In this document: positions 1 through 14,121 of the stretch, piece by piece
Layout: every line of letters begins with the position of its first letter
How positions within the stretch are numbered: position 1 is the stretch's first letter
Assembly (NCBI GenBank): GCA_024638855.1
Contig: JAHEJP010000005.1
Span: 1-38,295 of the forward strand
Source: Chloroflexota bacterium
GTDB taxonomy: Bacteria; Chloroflexota; Anaerolineae; Promineifilales; Promineifilaceae
Reading direction: 5' to 3'
Length of the DNA stretch: 38,295 nucleotides
Notes under the pieces: generated by a model
The model's input: the letters and a program-made list of their open reading frames with translations, nothing else
Database searches by the model: none
What the model was told of the DNA's origin: nothing
Program-made: the position numbers and the translations under genes

Positions 1-1638
1 AGAACTTCGAAACTTACTCCCAATCGGCGTGTACACCCGTAAATAATTCCAATAACAATCCTCGATCAAATCCCCATAGCGCGTATTTTCAGTATAACTA
101 ATGTTGCCATGGATACAAGCAGTCTCGGCGATATTGTCTGGAAACGCATACTCTATTGCTACTTCTGCAGCGCCCGTCCCCGTTTCATCTAAAGTTACCT
201 GGTATTTGAGTGATCTATCTACTGTCGCGTTCACTTTGTTGAAACCCATATTCGTATCGACGGCTAATAAAAAGTCGCCGTCGCTGGGTATATCTAGTCC
301 ACCATCCCATCCAATCTTTTCTAAGATTTGGGCTGCCTCTGGGTCACGAAAATAAATTTGCAGGTGGCGCTGTTCGATCCCCTCATTTATTGCTTTGGTA
401 AGTTGTAATATATCGAGAGAACCAATATTAAGCAGGATCCGGTCTTTAATGGCCTTTGCCAAAGGACCCATGAAGGATTTTCTATCCAAGATCCAGTTTT
501 CCTCATGGTAGAGTTGGTTACCAGGCCCCCACTCTTCGCGCATTTCCTGGACCACGTTCGAACTATTTACATTCTGATCGAGGTCTGATATGTAGAGAGG
601 GCCGGTCGCTTCAAGAAGCGCTTGAACAAAATGCTGATCCAGGGCCACAGCGCCATCGAGCGATACATTCTGACTATAGTTATAAAGATCGATGGCCATC
701 TCGGCCGATGTCGGGAAATCGGGCCAATAGTTTGAATCCCGAAATAGAAAAATGTCCATTCCCATAAAATCGTTATAGGGTTGGGGAGGAAAACCATAAG
801 GTTTGTTCTGCCAATCGTCGATCAGGTTGGCATTTTTGAAGTCGAGTACCATGATCTGGCCATTTTCGACGGTTAGTAATCCAGCACCACTGATAAAGCC
901 CCCAGTGGCTCGTAATTCATCTTCATTTTGAGCCAATATGAGATAGCTTCGGCGGCCGTTCATTCCCATCAATTCCGGAAGAATCTGCGCAATGGTCAAG
1001 CTCTCGCGAGCCAGCGGCAGGTTGTCATCCAATAGCCTCAGAAGATCCTGTATTTGAATGGGCAGATCTTCTTCATTTTTTAAGTTAGATCTATGGGTCT
1101 CAAGCTGAGCTAAGGCCGTAGCGGCTGCAATTAACTCGGGTTCTGCCTGCTGTAAACTTTCGAGTATTTTCGGTAGTTCCGCTTGATAAAGACCATCGTC
1201 TGATTGGATGATATCCAGGGAGGGCCTGACTGCCTGCACCAAAAGCAGAGCCGCTTCACTTCCCGAATCTGCGATCGCCAATAACTCCGGCGTCGCTTCT
1301 GAAATGGAACCGACTATTGGCAAAGGGGCCAATAAAGCAGCAAACGTCTCAAAAGGGGTAACGATGGTTTGAATGGTTTTGATGTCCTCTCGAACGCCAA
1401 CTGCCAAACGTTCCAGCTCCAAGGGATCAGCCTGCATGATGCCAGCGCCCATGATTTGGTAAAGATCGTCCTGGTGCCCTAACAGAGAACTTCGAACTTG
1501 AATTAACCGGTAGGTCACAAGTCCAAACCATAACAGGACTAATCCTAGCCCAAATAATAAAAGCAGGAGCGCGAACCGTCTGGAGGGTCTCTGGTCTTGC
1601 TTTATTTCTGCAGAAGGTACGGATGAGTCTACGGGCAC
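1..1638 (-). CDS. DUF4012 domain membrane protein (C-terminus beyond left edge)
   Basis: An open frame starts at a GTG at 1638 and is still open at position 1, giving 546 residues. The first ~18 residues are polar. A single hydrophobic segment at about residues 20-43 should anchor the protein, leaving the rest outside the cell. The stretch NEDELRATGGFISGAG, preceded by RSYLILAQ, is the hallmark of the DUF4012 family, which has no established biochemical function but often sits near exopolysaccharide and cell-surface genes. The GTG lies 7 nt after the stop of the DUF2723 gene, so it looks like the last visible gene of the seven-gene minus-strand unit. No clear ribosome site precedes the GTG; an in-frame stop just upstream rules out a much earlier start. 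Family assignment is firm; the role is unknown. Confidence 0.85.
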   Translation of the reverse strand, partial: MPVDSSVPSAEIKQDQRPSRRFALLLLLFGLGLVLLWFGLVTYRLIQVRSSLLGHQDDLYQIMGAGIMQADPLELERLAVGVREDIKTIQTIVTPFETFAALLAPLPIVGSISEATPELLAIADSGSEAALLLVQAVRPSLDIIQSDDGLYQAELPKILESLQQAEPELIAAATALAQLETHRSNLKNEEDLPIQIQDLLRLLDDNLPLARESLTIAQILPELMGMNGRRSYLILAQNEDELRATGGFISGAGLLTVENGQIMVLDFKNANLIDDWQNKPYGFPPQPYNDFMGMDIFLFRDSNYWPDFPTSAEMAIDLYNYSQNVSLDGAVALDQHFVQALLEATGPLYISDLDQNVNSSNVVQEMREEWGPGNQLYHEENWILDRKSFMGPLAKAIKDRILLNIGSLDILQLTKAINEGIEQRHLQIYFRDPEAAQILEKIGWDGGLDIPSDGDFLLAVDTNMGFNKVNATVDRSLKYQVTLDETGTGAAEVAIEYAFPDNIAETACIHGNISYTENTRYGDLIEDCYWNYLRVYTPIGSKFRSS

Positions 1639-1645
1639 GATACTA

Positions 1646-3121
1646 TTAAGAATCTCTTATTTTCTTATAGTCTACACATGAGTAATAGCCTTGACCAACA
1701 AACGATACACGGCATACCGGCCGTTCCTGTTGATTACTCTTCACAAATCCGGGTACATCATCTTCAATTAGTCTCTTTAGTTCAGGATAAGTATCTTGTA
1801 GTCGTTGCCGGTACCAGGGAAACTGAAACATATTTTCATCGACAATGGCGATGTCCATTCTGACACCCTCGACGTGTTGGAAATACCACAATGCGGCAAC
1901 TGTTTGGTCGCCCCCGGTGAGCAATATGGCATTGTCCGGAGCCACCTCCAACATTTCTTCGGCCGCCCCCCGAACGTCAACGGTCGGCGTCGAAAGAGAT
2001 GGGATGGCCAAGGTGACCATCAACAGCGGTAGAAGTAGAGCTAAAACCTTTAATCGAGGTAAAAATAGTCCAAGGTTTACGCTTAGTAACAGAACGGCAG
2101 GTATTAAATACACAAAAGAATCGGGCGTACTGTAAGTGAGTGCATAGCCTACAAACAGCATTGCCGTTACTAATAAAGACGATCCCGGCCGCTTGCGGTC
2201 GTTCGAGCGATCAGCGATCAATCCAACGATAGTTGCAAACGTTAATATCATTAATGGCAGGAAGATAGCTAGTCCCCATCTGGTCATTCGAGCCAGCCAT
2301 AATGATGGCGATATCGAGAGGATATTGGGGCGATAGAGCCGGCCGCTAACGAGCCACCACCAAGCTTCGATGGTGTTCGCTTCGCCCCAAGATACAGGAC
2401 TTCCGCTATTGGATAAGACAGGCAGAGCCAATAATGGCAGTAATCCTATTGCAGTTCCGGCTGCCAAACCGGGCCATGATTTCTTCGGGACCAAAAGCAG
2501 CAGGAGAGGGATGAATAACAGTGATGTTAGGTGGCCAGCAATACTCAGGCCAAATACGAATCCGATTAGCGCCGGCCGTCGATCGGTGATAATGGCCCAA
2601 AGCAGAGCTGCAAGCAATAGAGCGTTGAGGGCATATACCTCGGCGATTAGAGATTGTTGCCATACCACCGGAACAAACGCGTAGGTTAAACCACAAGCAA
2701 TACAGGCCAAGGTCAATGATGAAAGAGCCCAAATGTGAGTCTGTGGTATAAGAGATTTTTTGGCCGCAATCGCCGATACAAAGCCGGCTGCTGCCGCCAT
2801 TGACATGGCAGAAAACAAATTGTACCGGAAGGCGATTGTACCAATAGGAATCATACTAAATAGTTTTCCGAACAACACGTAGATGGGAAATCCTGGGGGG
2901 TGGGGGATGCCGAGTGAATAGGAGGCTGCTATTAACTCGCCTCCGTCACCACCGTGGTAGGCCCAAGAAATATCATCCTCCAAGGTGAAGACATACAAGA
3001 TCAAAACGATCAAAGTACTGGCTAGCGGTATAGCAGAGTGTCCTAGAGAATCGATGGCGTGGGAGCAAAATCGACTTGCTAGAATTCGATTACGGAGCAG
3101 AAGCTTGTTGAGCAAATCCAC
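1646..3121 (-). CDS. DUF2723 family multi-pass membrane protein (GT-C-like)
   Basis: This 491-residue protein is mostly hydrophobic, with about ten predicted membrane helices. Its N-terminal part carries the DUF2723 signature: a GGDGGELIAAS loop followed by LGIPHPPGFPIY and LFGKLF. DUF2723 proteins resemble GT-C glycosyltransferases and protein O-mannosyltransferases, which move a sugar from a polyprenyl carrier to an acceptor outside the membrane. The acidic loop after the first helix is where the GT-C catalytic aspartate normally lies. The reported start is GTG at 3121, but AGGAG lies only 2 nt from it and 8 nt from a TTG two codons further in (3115), so TTG may be the true start. It lies 14 nt after the membrane C25 peptidase gene and 7 nt before the DUF4012 gene. 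Surface glycosylation is an inference from fold similarity and context. Confidence 0.85.
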   Translation of the reverse strand: MDLLNKLLLRNRILASRFCSHAIDSLGHSAIPLASTLIVLILYVFTLEDDISWAYHGGDGGELIAASYSLGIPHPPGFPIYVLFGKLFSMIPIGTIAFRYNLFSAMSMAAAAGFVSAIAAKKSLIPQTHIWALSSLTLACIACGLTYAFVPVVWQQSLIAEVYALNALLLAALLWAIITDRRPALIGFVFGLSIAGHLTSLLFIPLLLLLVPKKSWPGLAAGTAIGLLPLLALPVLSNSGSPVSWGEANTIEAWWWLVSGRLYRPNILSISPSLWLARMTRWGLAIFLPLMILTFATIVGLIADRSNDRKRPGSSLLVTAMLFVGYALTYSTPDSFVYLIPAVLLLSVNLGLFLPRLKVLALLLPLLMVTLAIPSLSTPTVDVRGAAEEMLEVAPDNAILLTGGDQTVAALWYFQHVEGVRMDIAIVDENMFQFPWYRQRLQDTYPELKRLIEDDVPGFVKSNQQERPVCRVSFVGQGYYSCVDYKKIRDS

Positions 3122-3135
3122 AGCTCCTGGGGCAA

Positions 3136-5286
3136 CTATGAACCTGACCTTGCAGGTCGTAAGATCAGGGCACTGGGATCACCTAACAGGCCAAAAGTAT
3201 CGCTGATTTCCTGCAGATCACTGTCTGTATCGATTGCCAACTGTAACTTGGCTTCGAGAACGGCATCCCCCATCCGGATGACTGCCGGATCCTGCAAATT
3301 CCGTAGCAAGGCTGTAGCAAAAGGTTGTTGGCTGGTGGAGAGCGTTAGGCTTGTTGCTGCTACTATCAGGACCGGACCTCCAGCCTCGATCAGCATCGTT
3401 TCGGACAATGATGTTTGCGTTGGGTGGGCGAAAAAGCCTGTTAGGCAGGTAAGCTGGACGACAATGGGAGGCGGACCAGACGTTTTAAGGGCAAGGGCTG
3501 ATTGGCCATCCAACAAATTATCTTTTCCCCAACGATCCAAACTACCATGCCCGGTATAAGTGACAAGCCAGGCGCCTTCGTGCCAGGCTTGGGCAAATTC
3601 TTCAGCCTCTGCACCAATGAGCCGCTGTACATTATCGCTGTCCATCTGGCTATCTGCTAAAAGCTCCTCGACTAAATAGCTGAATTCATTGCTGCTGCTG
3701 TCGGCGGCAAAAATCGCCTGTTTGGAGGCTTGTGCTGCCTGTTCATAGGCCAGCGTCCTGGCCACTAGATCTTCGACATCCTGATAATTATCCACCGGCC
3801 AACGGCCGACAGCCAAATCGGGCTTGCCATCATCATCGATATCGGCTAACCGGGCGTCGCTAACGGTTTCGCCACTGTAGCTTACACGTACCATGGGAGA
3901 CGGTACCCCATTCTGAGGCGCTTCGCCCATATAGTCGCGGAAATCATAAGTCGCGTCGCCAACGAGAAACAGGTAACTTGGAGCCGGTTCTTGCCATTGT
4001 TCATGTGTGTAGGCAACGAACTGATTAATGTATTCGGGACCAGCCTGGCCAAAACCAAATTCATCATAGATATCTTCGACCGGGACAACCTTGGCCGTGA
4101 TACCTTGGGCTTCCCTGGCCACAAGCAAGGGTTCCAGGGCCGGGGCTAATTCCTCCGTGGTGATGATGAGCATGTCTGCTTGATTATCTGCATCAAGCAG
4201 AGCGCTATCATCGAGGGCTTCAATATTATCGGGTTCAAGATATTGAGGGGCGCCGACGATGAGCCCATGAACATCTGGCGTGACGCCGAGCGTTACAGTT
4301 CCGTCTTCAAATTGCCAGCCCGTTATCAGACTGGGTTCGGCCGGGTCAGATATTTCGAAGATGGCCGGTTTTTCATCGTATCCAAAGATGTTGAGCTGCC
4401 CCTCGAATCCCTGAAAATACAGGCTCTCTTCATCTGCCTGAGACGGCCGCAAAAACTCAAGTTCGAGCCAATCCAGTCGCATGACATCGATGGGAGTAGC
4501 GCCAGTCTGACTATTATCAAAGCGGATCGTATTCTTACCTTTTTTTAGAACGCCCTCATTCAGGGCTATTTCATCGTCGAAATGCTTTTCTCCATCCCAG
4601 GTAATTGTTCCGACAAGATGTTCATTGACGTAGATATCCAAATCGTGGTCGTCTTCGATATCTGGATTCTGGGTAACGCCTAACATCCTCAAGCGCAATG
4701 TGGCCGGACCTTCGGCTATTTCATCGATCTCCAGGTCGATCGATTCGCTCTGTTGGGCTTGGATCGTCAGCCAATACCAGGGATCGAGAGATGACAAATC
4801 ACCGTCAAAGTTAGCCGCGCTTCGACCATCATACAAGAGATTCTTCTCCAGGCGACGGTGTTGGATAATATGGCGAATTGGCTTATTATCAGCACCGGAA
4901 AAACTCTGACTGTCCATGTTTTGCCCAGGTTCGCCGAAGTGTATAATATACGTATTATATTTCGTATAGCGACTATTAGGTGCCTGGCCGTAGAACGATA
5001 TAAAATCGCCGTTAAGTTGATAGGGCACTTGCTTGCCATTCAAGGTCAAGTTGGTTGTTGAAGTGTCAATGTTCTCGGCCGGAAATCCAAGTTGTTGGAG
5101 ATCTTTCATCTTGATCCGATAAGGACCATCCTGGCTGATTGATATCTTAATCGCCTCAACGGGGATACTGGAATCAGTGATTTTGGCTCTGGAATCTAAG
5201 AAATCGAAGAGGGAAACAGCAACGAACCCGACGATGATTAGCCCAATAATTAGACCGATCACAGCGAACATATTTCGTGTAGACAT
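3136..5286 (-). CDS. Membrane-anchored C25 family (gingipain/PorU-like) cysteine peptidase
   Basis: The protein has 716 residues when started at the ATG at 5286. An in-frame start 99 nt further upstream would overlap the previous gene by 88 nt and was rejected. A hydrophobic segment at residues ~5-27 should anchor it with the bulk outside the cell. Residues ~45-70 (ISQDGPYRIKMKDLQQLGF) match the beta-rich N-terminal module seen in PorU-like proteins. The C25 domain occupies about residues 365-710, with LVGDATYD, the catalytic histidine in YTGHGS (about H580) and the catalytic cysteine in QLTCLTG (about C614). Both catalytic residues are intact. C25 peptidases cleave after Arg or Lys, or act as transpeptidases/sortases (PorU). 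It lies 11 nt after the anchored fibronectin-like gene. The substrate is unknown. Confidence 0.88.
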   Translation of the reverse strand: MSTRNMFAVIGLIIGLIIVGFVAVSLFDFLDSRAKITDSSIPVEAIKISISQDGPYRIKMKDLQQLGFPAENIDTSTTNLTLNGKQVPYQLNGDFISFYGQAPNSRYTKYNTYIIHFGEPGQNMDSQSFSGADNKPIRHIIQHRRLEKNLLYDGRSAANFDGDLSSLDPWYWLTIQAQQSESIDLEIDEIAEGPATLRLRMLGVTQNPDIEDDHDLDIYVNEHLVGTITWDGEKHFDDEIALNEGVLKKGKNTIRFDNSQTGATPIDVMRLDWLELEFLRPSQADEESLYFQGFEGQLNIFGYDEKPAIFEISDPAEPSLITGWQFEDGTVTLGVTPDVHGLIVGAPQYLEPDNIEALDDSALLDADNQADMLIITTEELAPALEPLLVAREAQGITAKVVPVEDIYDEFGFGQAGPEYINQFVAYTHEQWQEPAPSYLFLVGDATYDFRDYMGEAPQNGVPSPMVRVSYSGETVSDARLADIDDDGKPDLAVGRWPVDNYQDVEDLVARTLAYEQAAQASKQAIFAADSSSNEFSYLVEELLADSQMDSDNVQRLIGAEAEEFAQAWHEGAWLVTYTGHGSLDRWGKDNLLDGQSALALKTSGPPPIVVQLTCLTGFFAHPTQTSLSETMLIEAGGPVLIVAATSLTLSTSQQPFATALLRNLQDPAVIRMGDAVLEAKLQLAIDTDSDLQEISDTFGLLGDPSALILRPARSGS

Positions 5287-5297
5287 CAAGGGCAAAA

Positions 5298-6392
5298 TTA
5301 GCCAGTACGCTGGCGGGAGTACCAATAAATGGCGCCGACGATACCTAGAACAAAAATGAGCAAGGCTATGATAAAGCCAATCCATAGAACGAATGTGCTG
5401 GCGAGCCGATCACTTGGATTGCTGCTGGCCATTTCTGAATCGTCAACTGTTGCAGGGGAAGAATCGCTGCCTATCGCCGGGGCGGTGCCAAAATTTGGGG
5501 CGCTTGGAGGTGGGATGTTTTCTGGTGCGGCTCCTGGATAAGCGCTGGGATTCACCTGGAATGGCTGCTCAATACTATCTGGGGCAAGGCTAGGGTAAGA
5601 TAACTCGCTACCGGGCAAAACTGGCGTAACCAGTGGGGCAGGATATCCTTCGCCGGTTGGCTGAGCCTGGGCCTGGTTCGATACCGTCGTATTGTTACCG
5701 CTTGAGGTATCTGAATTGGCACTGGCAACGCCGCTAGTAGAAGTAGGATTCTGGTTTATCGTTCTAGATAAAATCGTTGCAGTCGCTCCAGCGCCGGAAG
5801 TCGAGCCTGTGGTTTGTTCACCTGATGATGCTTGACTGGTAACCTGCGGCGTTGGCGTCCTGGTAGGCGTACGCTGCGGTGTGCTGCTTGGCGAAGAGGG
5901 AACAGTGGTTCCCGTCGATTGGGCTATAGTAGATGTGACAGTGGGCGGTGCCTGGGTCTGGCCAGCAGTAACCACGATCGGCTGGGTTCTGTTTTCGGTG
6001 CCATCAAGTTCAATTTCGATCAAAATGTAGAAATAATTCTGGCCGTTATTGACGCCGTCTTCGTCCCTAACTTCATATTCAGCGCCGGAGAATGCATCGC
6101 TGGCCAGAGAGGGTACAAAACCGATAGCGCTCAATCTTTGAAATGGGCCTTCCAATTGCAAAGCGCGTTCTATTTCAAAGCCGACGGTATCCAGTTCGGT
6201 CGCCGTTGCCCACTCGAGAACTACTGCGCTATCCTGACCTTGACCTCTGAAGTAGATTAGCGAAACCGCTGTAGGATTCTCTCCCCTGGCGTTGCTGAAC
6301 GACAGTCCGCTCAAGAAAATCGCCAACAGCAGGGCGATTGATAAACCGTTGCCGATGTATTTTTTTGAGATATGGGTCGCTTTTAAGTTCAT
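5298..6392 (-). CDS. Anchored surface protein with fibronectin-like module and Ser/Thr-rich stalk
   Basis: The protein has 364 residues. A signal peptide (hydrophobic at ~17-36) is followed by a module at about 40-140 containing VVLEWATATELDTVGFEIER, a D-E-D-G turn and NYFYILIEIELDG. This pattern (V-x-L-x-W-x-T-A-x-E, then F-x-I/V-E-R, then a YY/YF-x-L strand) is the fibronectin-like fold that often precedes sorting domains in Bacteroidota secreted proteins. Residues ~145-325 are a low-complexity Ser/Thr/Pro stalk, a likely O-glycosylation target. A C-terminal membrane helix (~336-358) is followed by a short basic tail. Its ATG overlaps the stop of the large C25 gene by 4 nt, so the two are translationally coupled. 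A second copy of the same module is encoded at 10058-10522. Ligand and role are unknown. Confidence 0.8.
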   Translation of the reverse strand: MNLKATHISKKYIGNGLSIALLLAIFLSGLSFSNARGENPTAVSLIYFRGQGQDSAVVLEWATATELDTVGFEIERALQLEGPFQRLSAIGFVPSLASDAFSGAEYEVRDEDGVNNGQNYFYILIEIELDGTENRTQPIVVTAGQTQAPPTVTSTIAQSTGTTVPSSPSSTPQRTPTRTPTPQVTSQASSGEQTTGSTSGAGATATILSRTINQNPTSTSGVASANSDTSSGNNTTVSNQAQAQPTGEGYPAPLVTPVLPGSELSYPSLAPDSIEQPFQVNPSAYPGAAPENIPPPSAPNFGTAPAIGSDSSPATVDDSEMASSNPSDRLASTFVLWIGFIIALLIFVLGIVGAIYWYSRQRTG

Positions 6393-9300
6393 TTAAGCAA
6401 AATTGGCAACCAAGCCGCCCGGTTTAAGACCATCACCTCAGCTTGGTCCTGTTCGTTGCCTGGCACGTAATCTAAACCCGTTCCTGTGACGCTCGCATCC
6501 GCGCTCTTTGCGCCCAGGGAAATGGTAGGCGTGATAAAGGCCGTAATTACGACTGTCGCCGTTTCGTTCCGCGGTATACCTTTATTTCTTAAACCTTCTC
6601 CAAATTGTATGTCGAATTGCAGCGGGTTGCCATCGTCCTTTATATCTACTTCGATTGATGAAGTGGCGGTAATGAAATGGAATCCATCTGGTAGCAGGTG
6701 TTCGACCGAAGCGTGGCTTGGATAAACGCCAAAATTGGAGATATCAAGTTGGTAACGCACTTCTTCACCAGGTGCGGCAGCCGCTGTGTTAGCCGAGTGG
6801 GCTAGGCTCAAGTTAGGTCTGAAGAGTTGCATCGCCGGATCGCCTCCGACAACGTAGCTGTATATCAGCGAATCATACGCGCCCGGAAGCGAACCATAAT
6901 ATATCTTAGCATAGGTGGTTGCTCCACCGATGGTGGTGATTCCTTGGTTAAACAGCTCGTCGTAAAACGCGCCGATGATAGCTGAATGTTCGCTGGAAAG
7001 GCCCAACCCTGTAGAACCAAAATGAGCGGCAGCGCCCACGCCGATTCCTTGGGCATTTTTGGCTCGCAATAAGGTCTCCCCGAGGCCCTGTTTCTCTGGG
7101 TTGTTGTATTTGCCGTCCAGGCAATTACCTGTGATGATCACAAATGGTCGTTGCGTATTGGTGAAGTTGTCTACGTCACTGGTGGTTAGTATCGAACCAC
7201 CCCAGTTATCTGTCGCACCATGGCCGCGATAGTTAATTATCGTTGCCCCTGTATTGTTCATGGCCTGAAAAATATCGGCGCGCAAGCCGTCCACGTCACT
7301 GTAATTTTCACGGCAGAAGGGAATGGTTTTGAAACTATCTGGCAGCTTATCTGCTTGCCATTGATTTTGAAGGCAGAAATTACCGGCGGCACCAGGGTTA
7401 TCGCTCACGAAAACTATATTTTCCATCCAGCCATAAGACTGTAGCTGATTCTGATCATAGCGGATAATTTTGCTAACAGCTGTGGCCACATGATCGGCCG
7501 TTTGGGCAGCTATACGGCCCAGATAGATATCTGGTGCCAGATCGTCGTCACTTAGTAAGCTAAAAACCAAATCGGAGGGGATTTCACCCTGCCAGGGATC
7601 GATATGGACCATGTCAGATAACATGAATTGTTCATCGGTCCAGTCTGGATTGAGATGGCGCGGATCCTGGGTTGAATCGCCGACTAGCAGAGCGAAAGTT
7701 GGCGGCGTATTCCAATTCTCGAGGGCGTATTTCAGGTAATCTTTGATTGCGGCCGGGATCGGCAATCCATAACCATACTGGTTGATCACATCTTCCACTG
7801 AAATCACGTGCGTGGACAGACCACCGTGTATCGACGACGAACGGTGATCGGCCAGGACCTGCACCTGGGATAAGAAGTCCGGGTTCGATATGGCCACCCA
7901 ATCGGCGCCCCCCGAGGTCGGATTTAAGTCCGCTGGAATATATTTGCTGATGGTTAGGGGAGACAGCGTATTCTGTTCGGATATGGCGATGAATTTGGAG
8001 CCGGCCGGTTGGCTAGACCCAAAGGTGAAGGCGTAAGGTCCGCCACCGCTCACGTCGATGGTGGACTGGGTGATCGAAATGGGAAAAGTCCGTTGGCTTA
8101 TATCCCAAATGATTGGCTGATTTTGCAAAAAGTTTTGTACCTGGAACTCTTTGGGTCCACCGTTGTCAGCGCTGAATATCAATTGGTTGTCGCTGGCGAT
8201 CAATTTACGCAGATAGTCGACCGTTATCCGGTTCAAGGCAGTGCAGGGAAGGCATTTTGCATCAGCAGCAGACCACTGAGTACTCATATAGCTAACATCG
8301 AAATTATTGGTACCGTTGATCAAGGTATTGATTGGAACGCTGCCTGTTATATTGGCATTATTCTCATACAACCAGTTGCCGGTACTACTCTCAAAATAGT
8401 TATTCATTGTAATGGTGGTTGTAAAACCAACAGAATTTGTCGTTGAGGCATCTCTTGTTGAAAACTCGGCCGTAAACTGGGCATCTGGTCCCGAATCGGC
8501 CGGATTATTCAAAGTCATGGTGTATGTTCCATAACGAGCAAATCTTGATATCGGTGGCACTCGATCCCAGTACCAGGAGTCAGCCTCGTTAGGGTATGAG
8601 TCCTTCCAGTTGGTGTAGATGCTGATGTAATGGTTTTCTTCCTCGCGAGTTACGCTGGAGAGGAACTCCGTCACGGGCGTCCCGCCGGCAAGTGAGTCAA
8701 TTCCGGTTATAGTTGTCGGACTACCACCGGCCCAGAGCCAGAAGACGTTGTTGGTGATGAATTGGCGCTCCAGTCGCGAACCGTTAAATGCCCAACCATA
8801 GAATCTGATTTTTTCCGATGATTCAAATGAGTTGTCATCATCACCGATGAATTCATAAGCCACCGGACCTCCACGGTAGTTCATCTCAAATGTCTGGGGA
8901 TCGACGCTGCCGACCTGCATACCGGCCGCTTCTAAATCGGCATACGTGAGCTCATAAATGCCGTCCTGCTTGATTTCAATCTTAAATGTCTCTGTGCCGA
9001 TGGGCAGGGAGGTGCCAGGAGCCGGTGGTCCCGGCGGCAAACTCCGGAAAGCTCGGACTTGATCGCCATTGAGAATCTGACTAGTCAGGCTATTAGCGAG
9101 CTGATCGTCGTGAGTTGGGGCGAGCCGACGGCCGGAAAAGTTGGCGCCGTCGAACGATATGTTTACTTCGACCTGGCTCGAATAGCTTAATGCCTCGCTG
9201 GTTAGATCATAGCGGACCGGATAGAGAGTCAGGCGGGCCAGGCGAAGATCGCGCACGTAAAATGGCTCAGATAAATCGAATTGTTCGGCCGGGTATTCGC

Positions 9301-9781
9301 CGTTTATCGCTTGCGCGCCGGTGATCGGCCCGGCCGCTTCGACAAAACCTGATGGGGAAAGGGAAGATTCCTCATCTGGCTGATAACCGCCGGCAAACGT
9401 CGCCCGGGGCGCATTTTGCACCTGTACCCCCTGCAATGTCCCCGTGTTTTCTGTTTTCAGCCTGACGTTTGCCTCGGCTTCAGGCGGCAAGACAATGAGG
9501 GTGGTGTAGTAGGGGAGTTCGGGCAGGTCCGGACTCCTGGTCAGGTCGTTCAAGCCTTGGACACTTAAGCTGCCATCGTTATCCAAGCTAGGAGCAGGGG
9601 TATTGAGCCGGAATGACAAACCGCTCTCGTTTGAAACGAATTCGCTGACGCCGGGGTTCTGTGAGGTATCGATTTCTTGGGATTGACCAGCGGCCGGCAT
9701 GGAACCAGAGACGCTCGTCATCAGCAGGGATAAAAACAAAATGGCTAAGATTGAGCTGATGGTTAATAATTTCCAACGCAT
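6389..9781 (-). CDS. Large secreted C25 family (PorU/gingipain-like) cysteine peptidase
   Basis: The protein has 1130 residues with a signal peptide (hydrophobic ~5-24). A prodomain-like region (~55-245) includes LPELPYYTTLIVLPP, typical of gingipain-family propeptides. A PorU-like segment follows (~260-360: FKIEIKQDGIYELTYADL, then VDPQTFEM). The C25 catalytic domain is at about 640-990, with FALLVGDST, the catalytic histidine in NYRGHG (H854) and the catalytic cysteine in ITGNCLDG (C887). A beta-sandwich resembling DUF11/CARDB follows (~992-1120). The protein ends in AAWLPILLK, with no further membrane helix. It starts 26 nt after the PqqD-like gene and overlaps the next gene by 4 nt. Surface maturation or degradation of proteins is expected; sortase-like action is an inference. 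Confidence 0.88.
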   Translation of the reverse strand: MRWKLLTISSILAILFLSLLMTSVSGSMPAAGQSQEIDTSQNPGVSEFVSNESGLSFRLNTPAPSLDNDGSLSVQGLNDLTRSPDLPELPYYTTLIVLPPEAEANVRLKTENTGTLQGVQVQNAPRATFAGGYQPDEESSLSPSGFVEAAGPITGAQAINGEYPAEQFDLSEPFYVRDLRLARLTLYPVRYDLTSEALSYSSQVEVNISFDGANFSGRRLAPTHDDQLANSLTSQILNGDQVRAFRSLPPGPPAPGTSLPIGTETFKIEIKQDGIYELTYADLEAAGMQVGSVDPQTFEMNYRGGPVAYEFIGDDDNSFESSEKIRFYGWAFNGSRLERQFITNNVFWLWAGGSPTTITGIDSLAGGTPVTEFLSSVTREEENHYISIYTNWKDSYPNEADSWYWDRVPPISRFARYGTYTMTLNNPADSGPDAQFTAEFSTRDASTTNSVGFTTTITMNNYFESSTGNWLYENNANITGSVPINTLINGTNNFDVSYMSTQWSAADAKCLPCTALNRITVDYLRKLIASDNQLIFSADNGGPKEFQVQNFLQNQPIIWDISQRTFPISITQSTIDVSGGGPYAFTFGSSQPAGSKFIAISEQNTLSPLTISKYIPADLNPTSGGADWVAISNPDFLSQVQVLADHRSSSIHGGLSTHVISVEDVINQYGYGLPIPAAIKDYLKYALENWNTPPTFALLVGDSTQDPRHLNPDWTDEQFMLSDMVHIDPWQGEIPSDLVFSLLSDDDLAPDIYLGRIAAQTADHVATAVSKIIRYDQNQLQSYGWMENIVFVSDNPGAAGNFCLQNQWQADKLPDSFKTIPFCRENYSDVDGLRADIFQAMNNTGATIINYRGHGATDNWGGSILTTSDVDNFTNTQRPFVIITGNCLDGKYNNPEKQGLGETLLRAKNAQGIGVGAAAHFGSTGLGLSSEHSAIIGAFYDELFNQGITTIGGATTYAKIYYGSLPGAYDSLIYSYVVGGDPAMQLFRPNLSLAHSANTAAAAPGEEVRYQLDISNFGVYPSHASVEHLLPDGFHFITATSSIEVDIKDDGNPLQFDIQFGEGLRNKGIPRNETATVVITAFITPTISLGAKSADASVTGTGLDYVPGNEQDQAEVMVLNRAAWLPILLK

Positions 9782-9807
9782 AAATTATCCTTTGAAAATG
9801 AGTCGAG

Positions 9808-10080
9808 TTATGACCAGATTAAGATATCTCTTTGATTCAATTCCTGGAGAAAACTTTTAACGTCAGAGGCGGCCTCTGCCTCGGAAATTTCGTATTCTTG
9901 GGCTACTAAATCACAAATATCCCTGACGGTTCTTTTGCCATCAACAAGTTGCCATACAAGAGTACCAACTTCGTTGAGGACGCGCACTTGCCCGCCTTCA
10001 GGCGATATGATGACCGTACCATCTTCCATCTCCCGCCAAATTAATTCAGACGACTTATCAGGGATTCGTCTTTGATCCAT
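9808..10080 (-). CDS. PqqD-like (RRE) peptide-chaperone protein
   Basis: The protein has 90 residues from the ATG at 10080, which has AGGA 7 nt upstream. A start 30 nt earlier (10110) lacks a good ribosome site and overlaps the upstream gene more. The sequence follows the PqqD winged-helix pattern: ELIWREMEDGTVIISPEGG, then VRVLNEVGTLVWQLVDG, then TVRDICDLVAQEYE and a C-terminal helix with FLQELNQRDIL. PqqD-family domains (RiPP recognition elements) bind a leader peptide and present it to a modifying enzyme. Here there is no radical SAM enzyme, cyclase or obvious precursor in the window; the gene lies between a fibronectin-like membrane protein (23-nt overlap) and a secreted C25 peptidase. 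The fold assignment is strong, the partner is unknown. Confidence 0.87.
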   Translation of the reverse strand: MDQRRIPDKSSELIWREMEDGTVIISPEGGQVRVLNEVGTLVWQLVDGKRTVRDICDLVAQEYEISEAEAASDVKSFLQELNQRDILIWS

Positions 10081-10522
10081 TGTTTTTTCCTGAAGCACTT
10101 TTGAATCCATAGAGGAACAAGATCAAAGCAAAAATCGCACATACAACAGCCACAGGAATGATCCAAAAAGGCCTCGTTGGCGCTTGAACGGTCAAGACTT
10201 GATGTGCAGCCGATGTGCTGTCAAACTCTACATCCTCTAGGCGATAATAATAAATTCTGCCCGGAACAACGTCCTTGTCAGTAAATTCGTACGATGCTCC
10301 GGCGGCCGGATCAGCCTGGCTGGCGATCAGTTTATCGTTTATTTGCTTGTAAATGCCGGTTTCATTATCACTCTTAAGTATATTAAAGCCAGCAGTCTCG
10401 AATTCCGTTTCCGTCCGCCATTCTAACTTGATAGCCGGTGAAACCACCACCTGGCTGACGATTAGGACAATGGCCAGGATGAGCCATAATATTCCCAGCA
10501 AGATTAGTGTCGATCGCCGCAT
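10058..10522 (-). CDS. Small two-helix membrane protein with fibronectin-like module
   Basis: The protein has 154 residues: an N-terminal membrane helix (~5-28), an extracellular module (~30-118) and a C-terminal helix (~122-142) with a short polar tail. The module reads LEWRTETEFETAGFNILKSD, then YEFTDKDVVPGRIYYYRLED, and is clearly the same fold as in the 364-residue protein at 5298-6392. It is the first gene of the minus-strand unit. Its 3' end overlaps the pqqD-like start by 23 nt. No enzymatic motif is visible; it may be a docking or scaffold protein for the surface system. The family is unnamed as far as I can tell. Confidence 0.78.
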   Translation of the reverse strand: MRRSTLILLGILWLILAIVLIVSQVVVSPAIKLEWRTETEFETAGFNILKSDNETGIYKQINDKLIASQADPAAGASYEFTDKDVVPGRIYYYRLEDVEFDSTSAAHQVLTVQAPTRPFWIIPVAVVCAIFALILFLYGFKSASGKNNGSKTNP

Positions 10523-10906: not shown

Positions 10907-12286
10907 ATGGCCAAGAGCCATACCCAGTATGTTTGCCAAAGATGTGGTCGAATCACGGCCGCATATGTCGGAAAATGCCCTCAGTGTAGTGAATTCGGGT
11001 CTATGGTCGAACAAACCGTCTCCCCTGCCTCGAGCGATAGCGGGGCAAAGCGCCACTTTACAGGCCACAGGAGTAAGCCGGAACGGCTTGTCGATGTGAA
11101 GTCGGATGGCATCAGTCGACTACCACTGCCATTGCCAGAATTTTCACGGGTCCTTGGAGGAGGTATCGTCCCCGGATCGCTAACGTTGGTTGGTGGTGAT
11201 CCAGGGATCGGAAAATCAACCCTATTGCTCCAGGTGGCTGGCCTGATCGCTGCTTCTAGTGGAAAGTGTCTTTATATCTCGGGGGAGGAAAGCGTCCGGC
11301 AGATCAAGATGCGAGCAGATCGCATGCATATTCAGGCAGATAATTTATATCTGGTAACTGAAACGAACCTAAACGTGATTTTCGAGCACATCTTGGAGGT
11401 CCAGCCCGTTGTCATCATCGTGGATAGTATCCAAACGATGTACTCGGAGGAATTAACTTCCTCAGCCGGAAGCGTGACTCAGGTTCGAGAGTGTGCCGGC
11501 CGATTGCAGGAAGTTGCCAAGAATACCGGTCTATCGATATTTCTGGTCGGGCATGTGACGAAAGAGGGAGCGATCGCGGGACCTCGGGTACTTGAGCACA
11601 TCGTTGACACAGTATTGTACCTTGAAGGCGATCCATTCCACCGATATAGGTTATTGAGAGGCGTCAAGAATCGTTTTGGGGCGACGAGCGAAGTCGGCGT
11701 TTTTGAGATGGTTGAGCATGGTATGATCGAAGTCCATAATCCCTCCGAAGCTTTTTTGGCAGAGCGCCAAGTTAACGCACCCGGATCGGCTATCGCCGTC
11801 ACCATTGAGGGGACCCGTCCGCTGCTGGTGGAGATACAGGCGTTGGTGGTCACCACATCATTCTCAAACCCCAGACGTACGGCAAATGGTATCGACTATA
11901 ATCGACTACTACTGTTGTCGGCCGTCTTGAGTAAACGATCGAATCTGAGATTGCATGATAAAGATATCTATGCCAATGTGGTGGGGGGGTTACGTATCGA
12001 TGAGCCGGCCGTGGATTTGTCAGTTGCCGTCGCAATCGCCAGTAGCGCCAAGGATAGACCCGTCCATGCGGATTTAGCGTTGATGGGGGAGGTCGGATTA
12101 AGTGGCGAAATTCGAGCGGTTAGCCAACTCGATAGGCGGCTAAATGAAGCTGCGAAATTGGGCTTTAAGCGCTGCATTATACCGGGCTCGTCCAAAATGT
12201 TGCGCGCCAAAATCCCTAGCGAATTGGAAATAATCAAATGCCGGTCTATCCGGGATGTCTTGGATCGTGCTTTACTTTCCGCCTAA
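10907..12286 (+). CDS. radA: DNA repair protein RadA (Sms)
   Basis: RadA is a RecA-like ATPase that promotes branch migration and processing of recombination intermediates. The protein has 459 residues from the ATG at 10907, which has AAGGAG at 10895-10900; an upstream in-frame ATG at 10886 has no such site. Visible are the N-terminal C4 zinc finger (C10, C13, C24, C27), Walker [11 protein letters not shown] (~96-105), a Walker B-like VVIIVDSIQ, the RadA-specific KNRFG motif (~254-258), and a C-terminal Lon-protease-like domain with [15 protein letters not shown]. Length is normal for the family. Its stop codon overlaps that of the convergent GH99-like gene, and no terminator lies between them. 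Confidence 0.97.
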
Positions 12287-14079
12287 TAGTGGCGACTAAG
12301 ATACAGCAAAGCACCGCCAATCAAAGCTAAGACTAAAGCTCCACCAAGTACGGTCGGCAAGATCCCGAGAGATTGATTGGGTGAGCCATCATCAACAGGC
12401 GCATTCGTAACCTCAGACTCGTCTCTTTCAATTGGTTCAGCTGTTTCCGTGGCAGATAAGGCTGTCGATGTCGGCAACGGGTTTGGCGTAATTGATGGGC
12501 TTTGGGTTAAAGTGAGCGAGGGTTCTGGTGAAGGTAATTCAGATGAGCCGCCAACTTCCTGAGGAATGGGTCGAAAACCCACGATCAGTTGTTGGCCAAT
12601 TTGTAGAACGCTACCCTCATTAAAACCATCATTCAGTTCATATAGCTCTGCCAATTGCAAGTCATAGGCCAAGGCGATACCAATTGGGGTATCCCCTTCT
12701 TTGACCGTGTAGACGGCCGTGCCATCATCCCGGATCACGGCGCCAGGAAATTCGGGGAAGAAAAGACCTTCGACTTCATCGTCATAGCCGATGATCAACA
12801 AGTCTCCAACCCTAAGGATATCTTCTGTGGTTCGGTCATTTAAGGTGAGGATTTCCTCAACCGTTATGCTAAATCGATCGGCGATCCCGATGAGCGAATC
12901 ACCAGCAACGACTGTGTAGACGATGGCGCCATCGTCCCGTGGCGTTGGCGAGGCGATGGGAGTTGGCGAAGAAGTAGGCGTAGGGGTACTGGTAGGAGAT
13001 GGTATTGTGGTCGGCGTTGGCGATGGGCCGAAAGTGGGCGTGAAAGATGGCTTCAATGTCGGAACTGGAGGACTAGTCGCCTGGACAACGGGAGCCGGTG
13101 CAGCAATGCTCCCGGACTTGAAGCCAGAGCTGAACTGGGAAGTCAGGTCCAAGTAGGTATTACCGAATTCTACACTTGGTTCAATATGACTTCCCTCGGC
13201 CCACTCGTTAAAGGAGTTGATGATCAACATATCAGGAGCGCTGGCGGCCGCACCGCTAAAACTTGACTGGTAATATGAGCCGCCAGCCCTATCACGGACG
13301 ATGGTTGCATCTCCACGTCCCAATAAAGAGTCATTAAATCCAGGCATGGCGGTCGCGACCCAATATTTATAAGTACCATAAGTGGTCGATGCGGCTCGGG
13401 TATTAGCTGCCCAAGTGGCAGCGGTGCCAGCGGGACTGTTGGACCAGGCGATATTATAAAGGTGCAATCCGTCAAAGACTGAAAGGTGTTCGGGGCTGCC
13501 TCCCTCGGCGATCCAAATGGAATTGTGGTTTGGGTCAACTTGTTCTCTAATAGAGGCCCATTCGCCAACGCTAAGCAACCAGTTAGCCCAAAAAAATATG
13601 ACTGGTTTTCCATCAACCCGCAGATACGCCCCGTGATTAGCATGGGTAGCCAAAAGGGTATTCAAGGCCTGTATTCTGTCGCCATTTCCTGAGAAAAAAG
13701 GGCTGCCAGTTTCGAAGTCTACGGCCGCCCTGAAGCCGCTGCTTGAAGCGATGTTTAAAAGGTTTTGGAAATTTGATTGGGTTTGATTGGCTGAAGGACC
13801 ATACCAACTTTGAACAAATGCATCAATTCCGGCCGCCTTAGCCTGATTTACATGGCGTTGAATGGTACCGCTATCCGTTGATAAATAGGGTTGAGGTGGC
13901 TGGAAAGGCGTGCGGCCGGGTCCGAATGAACCGGGCTCGTACCAGGCGTAATAAAAAGCCAGGACGAGTCTCGTTTGGCCTTGAGCGTTGGCCGAACTTC
14001 TAACCAACAACAAAAGACCAAGAAAGAATGGTAGTAGCAACAGAAACGAGATATTTATCTTTTGTGCTCTAGAAAACAT
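12283..14079 (-). CDS. GH99-like glycosidase with two LysM domains and C-terminal membrane anchor
   Basis: The protein has 598 residues from the ATG at 14079; a TTG two codons upstream is possible but neither has a clear ribosome site. A signal peptide (~10-33) is followed by a TIM-barrel-like domain (~36-320) with [37 protein letters not shown] and [15 protein letters not shown], the pattern of GH99/GH71-like and WbsX-type proteins. GH99 enzymes are endo-acting on alpha-mannosides. Then come a Pro/Thr/Ser linker (~330-383), LysM 1 (~386-432, [17 protein letters not shown]), LysM 2 (~455-503, [17 protein letters not shown]), a second linker and a membrane helix (~572-594). LysM modules bind N-acetylglucosamine-containing polymers, so wall or surface-glycan attachment is likely. 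The precise substrate is not known. Confidence 0.82.
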
Positions 14080-14121
14080 GGTCAAATAACACCAAAAAAA
14101 ACGGGTGACAAAAAAAGACGA

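Follow-up and report, generated by a model that had tools for sequence, protein, structure and literature searches.

A conserved Chloroflexota operon with two PorU-like C25 peptidases, and a C-terminal tail shared with unrelated secreted proteins

The window, meaning the whole stretch of 38,295 nucleotides that was analyzed, is one whole contig (C147) of a 5.3-Mb, 563-contig assembly of a Chloroflexota bacterium of the Anaerolineae type; its closest named relatives are MAGs labeled Anaerolineae, Ardenticatenaceae, and Caldilineales. Seven minus-strand genes in its first 10.5 kb form a single operon with the 5' to 3' order FNS, PqqD, C25L, FNL, C25S, DUF2723/TMEM260-like, and DUF4012. The features are as follows, by increasing coordinate.

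1-1638, minus strand: DUF4012 protein (PF13196, E 7.6e-35), truncated by the contig end
1646-3121, minus strand: DUF2723/TMEM260-like membrane protein, a candidate O-mannosyltransferase (PF11028, E 9e-30)
3136-5286, minus strand: C25S, a PorU-like C25 peptidase, TM-anchored and without a C-terminal tail; C25 domain at 3172-4173
5298-6392, minus strand: FNL, with a signal peptide, a fibronectin-like module, a Pro/Ser/Thr-rich stretch, and a C-terminal TM anchor
6389-9781, minus strand: C25L, a secreted C25 peptidase with a propeptide, a PorU-like N-terminal region, a C25 domain at 6824-7894, DUF11, and a tail
6392-6415, minus strand: C-terminal tail of C25L, AWLPILLK, seen in the sequence as a variant of [YF]LP[LIV][VI]x[KR]
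9808-10080 (alternative start 10110), minus strand: PqqD-like (RiPP recognition element) protein (PF05402, E 2.2e-21)
10058-10522, minus strand: FNS, a small protein with N- and C-terminal TM helices that flank a fibronectin-like module as in FNL

The genes are separated by gaps of 7, 14, 11, and 26 nt or overlap by 4 and 23 nt (the second overlap grows to 53 nt with the PqqD start at 10110), and all of the open reading frames that the sequence-only reading had grouped here belong to the one operon. A C25S start at 5385 would give an 88-nt overlap with FNL; the ATG at 5286, immediately ahead of the TM helix, is the better start. The identities proposed earlier for the PqqD, DUF2723, and DUF4012 proteins agree with the Pfam matches listed above. 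The current description of PF11028, "Protein O-mannosyl-transferase TMEM260-like", adds weight to the guess that the DUF2723 protein is a glycosyltransferase. The modules of FNL and FNS match each other in phmmer, as had been claimed of the two anchored proteins, and neither matches a Pfam family above the cut-off. No radical SAM protein, other modifying enzyme, or precursor peptide was found beside PqqD in the window operon. A divergent RadA gene directly adjoins the operon. Beyond it, at 12283-14085 on the minus strand, inspection by eye shows a secreted protein that resembles a glycosidase, contains two LysM-like repeats, and is TM-anchored at its C-terminus.

The two C25 peptidases differ in architecture and belong to separate lineages. 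They account for all of the C25 matches in the genome (Peptidase_C25, E 3.6e-66 and 2.7e-69). C25S is about 720 amino acids long and has nothing after its catalytic domain; at the N-terminus it has a TM helix in the window, whereas many relatives have a lipobox. C25L is about 1000 amino acids long and consists of a signal peptide, a propeptide, a PorU-like N-terminal region, the catalytic domain, sometimes DUF11, and a short tail. The gingipain-type Propeptide_C25 (PF08126, E 5.1e-11) and DUF11 were found by Pfam on C25L only. The His/Cys pair is intact in both proteins, as first noticed, with the motifs GHGS...TCLTG in C25S and GHGA...NCLDG in C25L; the catalytic motifs of C25L are GHG and NCLDG. 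His580 and Cys614 are invariant across 38 aligned C25S relatives. A tree of the catalytic domains separates a clade of all 29 C25S sequences (support 0.98) from a clade of all 31 C25L sequences, including those of Chloroflexia (0.94), so the pair is old and did not arise by recent duplication. C25 proteins from other phyla lie apart from both clades and mostly end at the catalytic domain, unlike the tailed C25L. In a few C25S relatives (L055, L057, L065) the catalytic His (GEG or GDG in place of GHG) or the Cys (TSL in place of TCL) is gone; the copies in some lineages may therefore be inactive. In-frame stops also occur in some of the relatives' sequences collected for the structure-prediction alignment.

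Both C25 proteins resemble PorU more closely than they resemble gingipains. PorU is the enzyme that attaches secreted proteins to the Bacteroidota surface. By sequence, C25S matches PorU (6za2) at 4e-9 versus 2e-4 for gingipains, and C25L matches PorU at 2.6e-11 and gingipains at about 1e-9, with a further match to the Kgp propeptide structure. The AlphaFold model of C25S (pLDDT 90.2, pTM 0.88) has the PorU fold of N-terminal beta domains plus a C25 domain. In Foldseek it aligns with 6za2 over 796 columns, nearly the whole protein (E 3.5e-33), while gingipains match the catalytic part (E 2.7e-18) and separase ranks next. The TM-score against 6za2 is a moderate 0.55 on the query (rmsd 9.5), indicating that the C25S domains are packed differently from those of the latent PorU dimer. 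The N-terminal half of the model is also similar to carbohydrate-binding regions of BcsB and of CBM proteins. The NCBIfam PorU model NF033707 aligns to C25S at residues 139-744 and to C25L at residues 264-994, with 190.5 and 190.4 bits (E about 1e-56). These scores are far below its 420-bit equivalog cut-off, showing that both proteins are PorU-like but are not PorU.

The unit is conserved in relatives. C25 peptidases are present in 109 of the 148 genomes sampled from the class. Sixty-six C25S genes had upstream sequence, and since these loci were picked by their C25 match, the fractions that follow are of C25S loci and not of genomes. An FN protein lies immediately upstream of C25S in 45 of the 66, C25L lies within four genes in 42, and PqqD lies within six genes in 22. 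The triad C25L-FNL-C25S recurs across many families, has other neighbors in families other than that of the window, and is also found in Thermoflexia (L212). FNS adjoins PqqD in many relatives. Gene order is kept, the PorU likeness holds in structure as well as sequence, and the idea of a conserved surface-protein unit with PorU-like enzymes, in a phylum not known for type IX secretion, is supported; neither an unconserved order nor a grouping with gingipains amid variable neighbors, the outcomes named in advance as refuting it, was seen.

Within the same family the unit sits in an exopolysaccharide operon. The window order is repeated, completely or partially, as FNS-PqqD-C25L-FNL-C25S-[LPG-synthase-like]-[GT2/WbaP-type]-DUF2723-DUF4012 (L073, L074, L076-L083, L086, L090, L092). 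DUF2723 is conserved downstream of C25S, DUF4012 follows it in L073, L080, L081, L083, and L090, and Wzz, BY-kinase, or a fused Wzz/BY-kinase protein is encoded upstream of FNS. In the window DUF2723 directly follows C25S, without the two intervening genes, and the Wzz/kinase gene is missing as well. The sequence-only reading had given the unit a possible glycan role through DUF2723; the glycan side is larger than it had supposed, with Wzz/BY-kinase, GT2-WbaP, LPG-synthase-like, and methyltransferase genes in the relatives' operons. Wbp-type linking-sugar genes were also sought beside C25S. The search yielded a nucleotide-sugar dehydrogenase and a Wzb-like phosphatase in L042 and nothing else of the kind; elsewhere the neighbors were sulfate-assimilation or unrelated genes.

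PqqD has a different setting in other relatives. It belongs to the unit in the window, as first proposed, where it stands alone. In relatives of two classes it is part of a cassette with an HprK-like kinase and a radical SAM/SPASM protein, in some cases with a SipW-like signal peptidase, found together with C25 and FN genes. In L033-L035 all three of these proteins surround PqqD within the unit (L033:8165-18630, L034:7988-18270, L035:1013-11278), and the cassette is also found in L114, L121, and L128-L130. The SynChlorMet/HPr-rel cassettes (NCBIfam ScmC, HprK_rel) likewise combine PqqD with an HprK-like kinase and radical SAM/SPASM proteins. However, scores against those models are below the cut-offs, and here C25, FN, and signal-peptidase genes accompany the cassette. 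It has the look of a peptide-modification system not described before; no precursor peptide was identified.

A short C-terminal tail is common to C25L and many unrelated secreted proteins. The ends of C25L proteins and of these other proteins fit [YF]LP[LIV][VI]x[KR], with a consensus near RVYLPLVLK and a length of about 8 residues. Besides the tail of the window protein, C25L tails include IYLPIVLK, RVFLPLILKH, VFAPLIVR, and IYLPLVLRRG. The proteins stop a few residues past the LP motif, and the TM helix and basic residues of exosortase and LPXTG signals are absent. In the stretches fetched around matches, 18 open reading frames end in the tail. They are long and of unrelated kinds (M28 aminopeptidase, M6 protease, PQQ repeats, oxidase-like), and mostly have a visible signal peptide where the start is within reach; a few stretches are too short to judge. 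No NCBIfam model covers the tail in the seven proteins scanned. C25S as a rule has no tail, and Chloroflexia have tailed C25L-type proteins, usually without an anchored C25S. The fibronectin-like module had earlier been read as a mark of cargo. It is indeed found on anchored proteins, but the FN proteins seem to be constant partners anchored in the membrane and not cargo, for which the tail is the better mark. Two arrangements near C25 genes may be recorded here. At L051:9911-12214 two tail-bearing secreted proteins, one of them cohesin-like, are encoded between C25L and FNL-C25S. In Chloroflexia a tail-bearing FN/DUF11-type protein adjoins a tail-bearing C25 protein and replaces the TM-anchored FNL (L113:5574-11999, L118:6361-13000, L119:5901-12169, L124:2840-7477).

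The distribution of tails follows that of C25 peptidases. A 24-base pattern for [YF]LP[LIV][VI]x[KRQ]-stop was counted in the 148 class genomes, with the reversed pattern as control. The 109 genomes with C25 have 553 tail matches versus 81 for the control, while the 39 genomes without C25 have 49 versus 34. The two groups differ in tails (p 6.5e-7) and not in the control pattern (p 0.71), although the genomes are related, so that the p-values overstate independence and the co-occurrence is partly shared ancestry. At the family level tails correlate with C25 (Spearman 0.46, p 0.0015), and within families the contrast is in the predicted direction in 9 of 11 mixed families. Outside the class, in a sample of 350 genomes from the phylum, the 35 genomes with C25 average 6.2 tails versus 0.6 for the control, all of the genomes without C25 have three or fewer, and the tail-rich families are the families with C25. 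There are exceptions: three genomes that are 81-83% complete (G023, G081, G101) carry genuine tails although no C25 was found in them, and G050, G062, and others have C25 and no tails. The tail evidence is drawn from relatives and not from the window's own genome, which has few tails (2 versus 1 control) and is at chance level with a looser pattern (6 versus 5). Clustering of tail genes beside C25 genes was only a weak trend (8 of 298 versus 5 of 466, p 0.08) and was rejected.

Searches for type IX secretion proper gave nothing convincing. SprA/Sov was matched in 0 of 59 genomes, and the control genomes likewise had no match, so this search lacked a positive control. No cargo with the type IX C-terminal domain (CTD, TIGR04183) was found in the window's own genome, and the control matched in a Bacteroides. 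Scattered and mostly weak TIGR04183 matches occur in 8 of the 59 genomes. Several good CTD matches lie on two contigs (C617, C485) of G021 and are probably contamination from a Bacteroidota genome.

Several known systems share features with the unit. In Porphyromonas, PorU removes the CTD of cargo and attaches A-LPS delivered by PorZ, via a linking sugar (PMC8545088), and A-LPS synthesis needs WbaP and other glycosyltransferases, with nucleotide-sugar enzymes also among the A-LPS-specific genes (PMC7468200). The Chloroflexota unit shares with the PorU/PorV/PorQ/PorZ attachment complex (PMC8545088) a C25 domain after PorU-like beta domains, a probable surface location, a link to WbaP-type glycan genes, and a candidate C-terminal signal on unrelated secreted proteins. 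It differs in its lower PorU score and in the type IX results above, in having a tail of about 8 residues in place of a whole C-terminal domain, and in the TM or lipid anchor of C25S. The gingipains RgpB and Kgp share the C25 domain and, with C25L, the propeptide, but they are the weaker match in sequence and fold, and here the partners are constant and membrane-bound. PEP-CTERM/exosortase (EpsH) also has a short C-terminal signal that co-occurs with one enzyme family, as well as exopolysaccharide loci, and was found by the same co-occurrence logic as was used here (PMC1569441). The tail, however, has no TM segment or basic cluster, C25 peptidases have a soluble catalytic domain, and the exosortase distribution does not match. 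LPXTG sortase shares LP at the start of the motif and a cysteine enzyme; here there is no TM segment with a basic tail, and sortase is present whatever the tail count. None of the literature searched describes a Chloroflexota C25/tail system. What is new here is the tail common to C25L and many unrelated secreted proteins. The unit is a previously undescribed variant of the PorU kind and possibly a new C-terminal sorting system.

We propose that the operon is a Chloroflexota module for surface-protein maturation and anchoring, in which the C25 enzymes would recognize the tail, cleave the protein, and probably transfer it to an exopolysaccharide or glycolipid. The chances that this proposal is right are about even. 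Such a module would work as the final, attaching step does in type IX secretion, without being part of a type IX system. Secreted proteins would exit via Sec. Outside the membrane, C25S (membrane-bound, beside the anchored FNL), C25L, or both would read the tail and cut ahead of it, and the new C-terminus would probably be joined to an exopolysaccharide or glycolipid from the operon's polysaccharide genes. Attachment would follow Sec export and take place in an envelope that has no classical outer membrane. Some Chloroflexota stain Gram-negative and have a multilayered envelope, with no BAM or LPS genes (PMC13319060). Since C25L is itself tailed, it may be processed as a substrate, or it may belong to the attachment complex and bear the signal as PorU does. 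We infer the reading of the tail by C25 enzymes, the cleavage, the transpeptidation, and the acceptor, together with the roles of the PqqD, DUF2723, and DUF4012 proteins.

The same genes can be read in other ways. The C25 pair could be a gingipain-like maturation or degradation unit, with C25L as a digestive protease, C25S as its activator, the FN proteins as adhesins, and the tail as an independent retention or folding element. The propeptide of C25L and its match to Kgp fit this explanation, enzymes with propeptides require activation, and the clustering of tail genes with C25 genes is weak. It is nevertheless rather unlikely, because fold and sequence place PorU first, with NF033707 matches that extend along both proteins, the FN partnership is constant, exopolysaccharide genes accompany the unit within the family, and tails track the genomes with C25. 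It is very unlikely that the unit is part of exopolysaccharide synthesis or export, with C25S and FNL binding or shaping the polymer, C25 activity regulating the process, and no protein sorting. The flanking polysaccharide genes in relatives and the CBM/BcsB-like half of C25S would agree with such a role, but the triad has other neighbors in other families, the catalytic dyad is kept in all 38 aligned relatives, and the tails would be left unexplained.

Another enzyme could process the tail, the C25 proteins then being tailed passengers; the candidates are classical sortase, exosortase, and the SipW-like signal peptidase that some operons encode close to C25L. This appears improbable. The tail has LP as in LPXTG, C25L is itself tailed, sortase is present in 132 of the 148 genomes, and exosortase, which is scattered, occurs in some tail-rich genomes. 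Yet the tail lacks the TM helix typical of sortase and exosortase signals, sortase is also found in tail-poor genomes, and the genome richest in tails (G076) has no exosortase. The effect of C25 on tails holds in exosortase-negative (p 7e-5) and in sortase-positive genomes (p 3e-6), and neither enzyme has a significant effect once C25 is considered. Classical sortase and exosortase were rejected as the tail enzyme because their distributions do not fit the tails.

Tail recognition and attachment by the C25 enzymes could have wider consequences for Chloroflexota. The phylum may have a C-terminal sorting system of its own, in which a PorU-like transpeptidase couples many tailed proteins per genome to exopolysaccharide or glycolipid, with no type IX secretion, TM sorting signal, or outer-membrane translocon involved; this broader claim is made tentatively, as possible rather than probable. 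If it is true, a PorU-type family and its matching tail would provide a direct handle on surface display in Chloroflexota, and PorU-type attachment would be possible without type IX secretion. Many hypothetical secreted proteins could then be annotated from their last eight residues.
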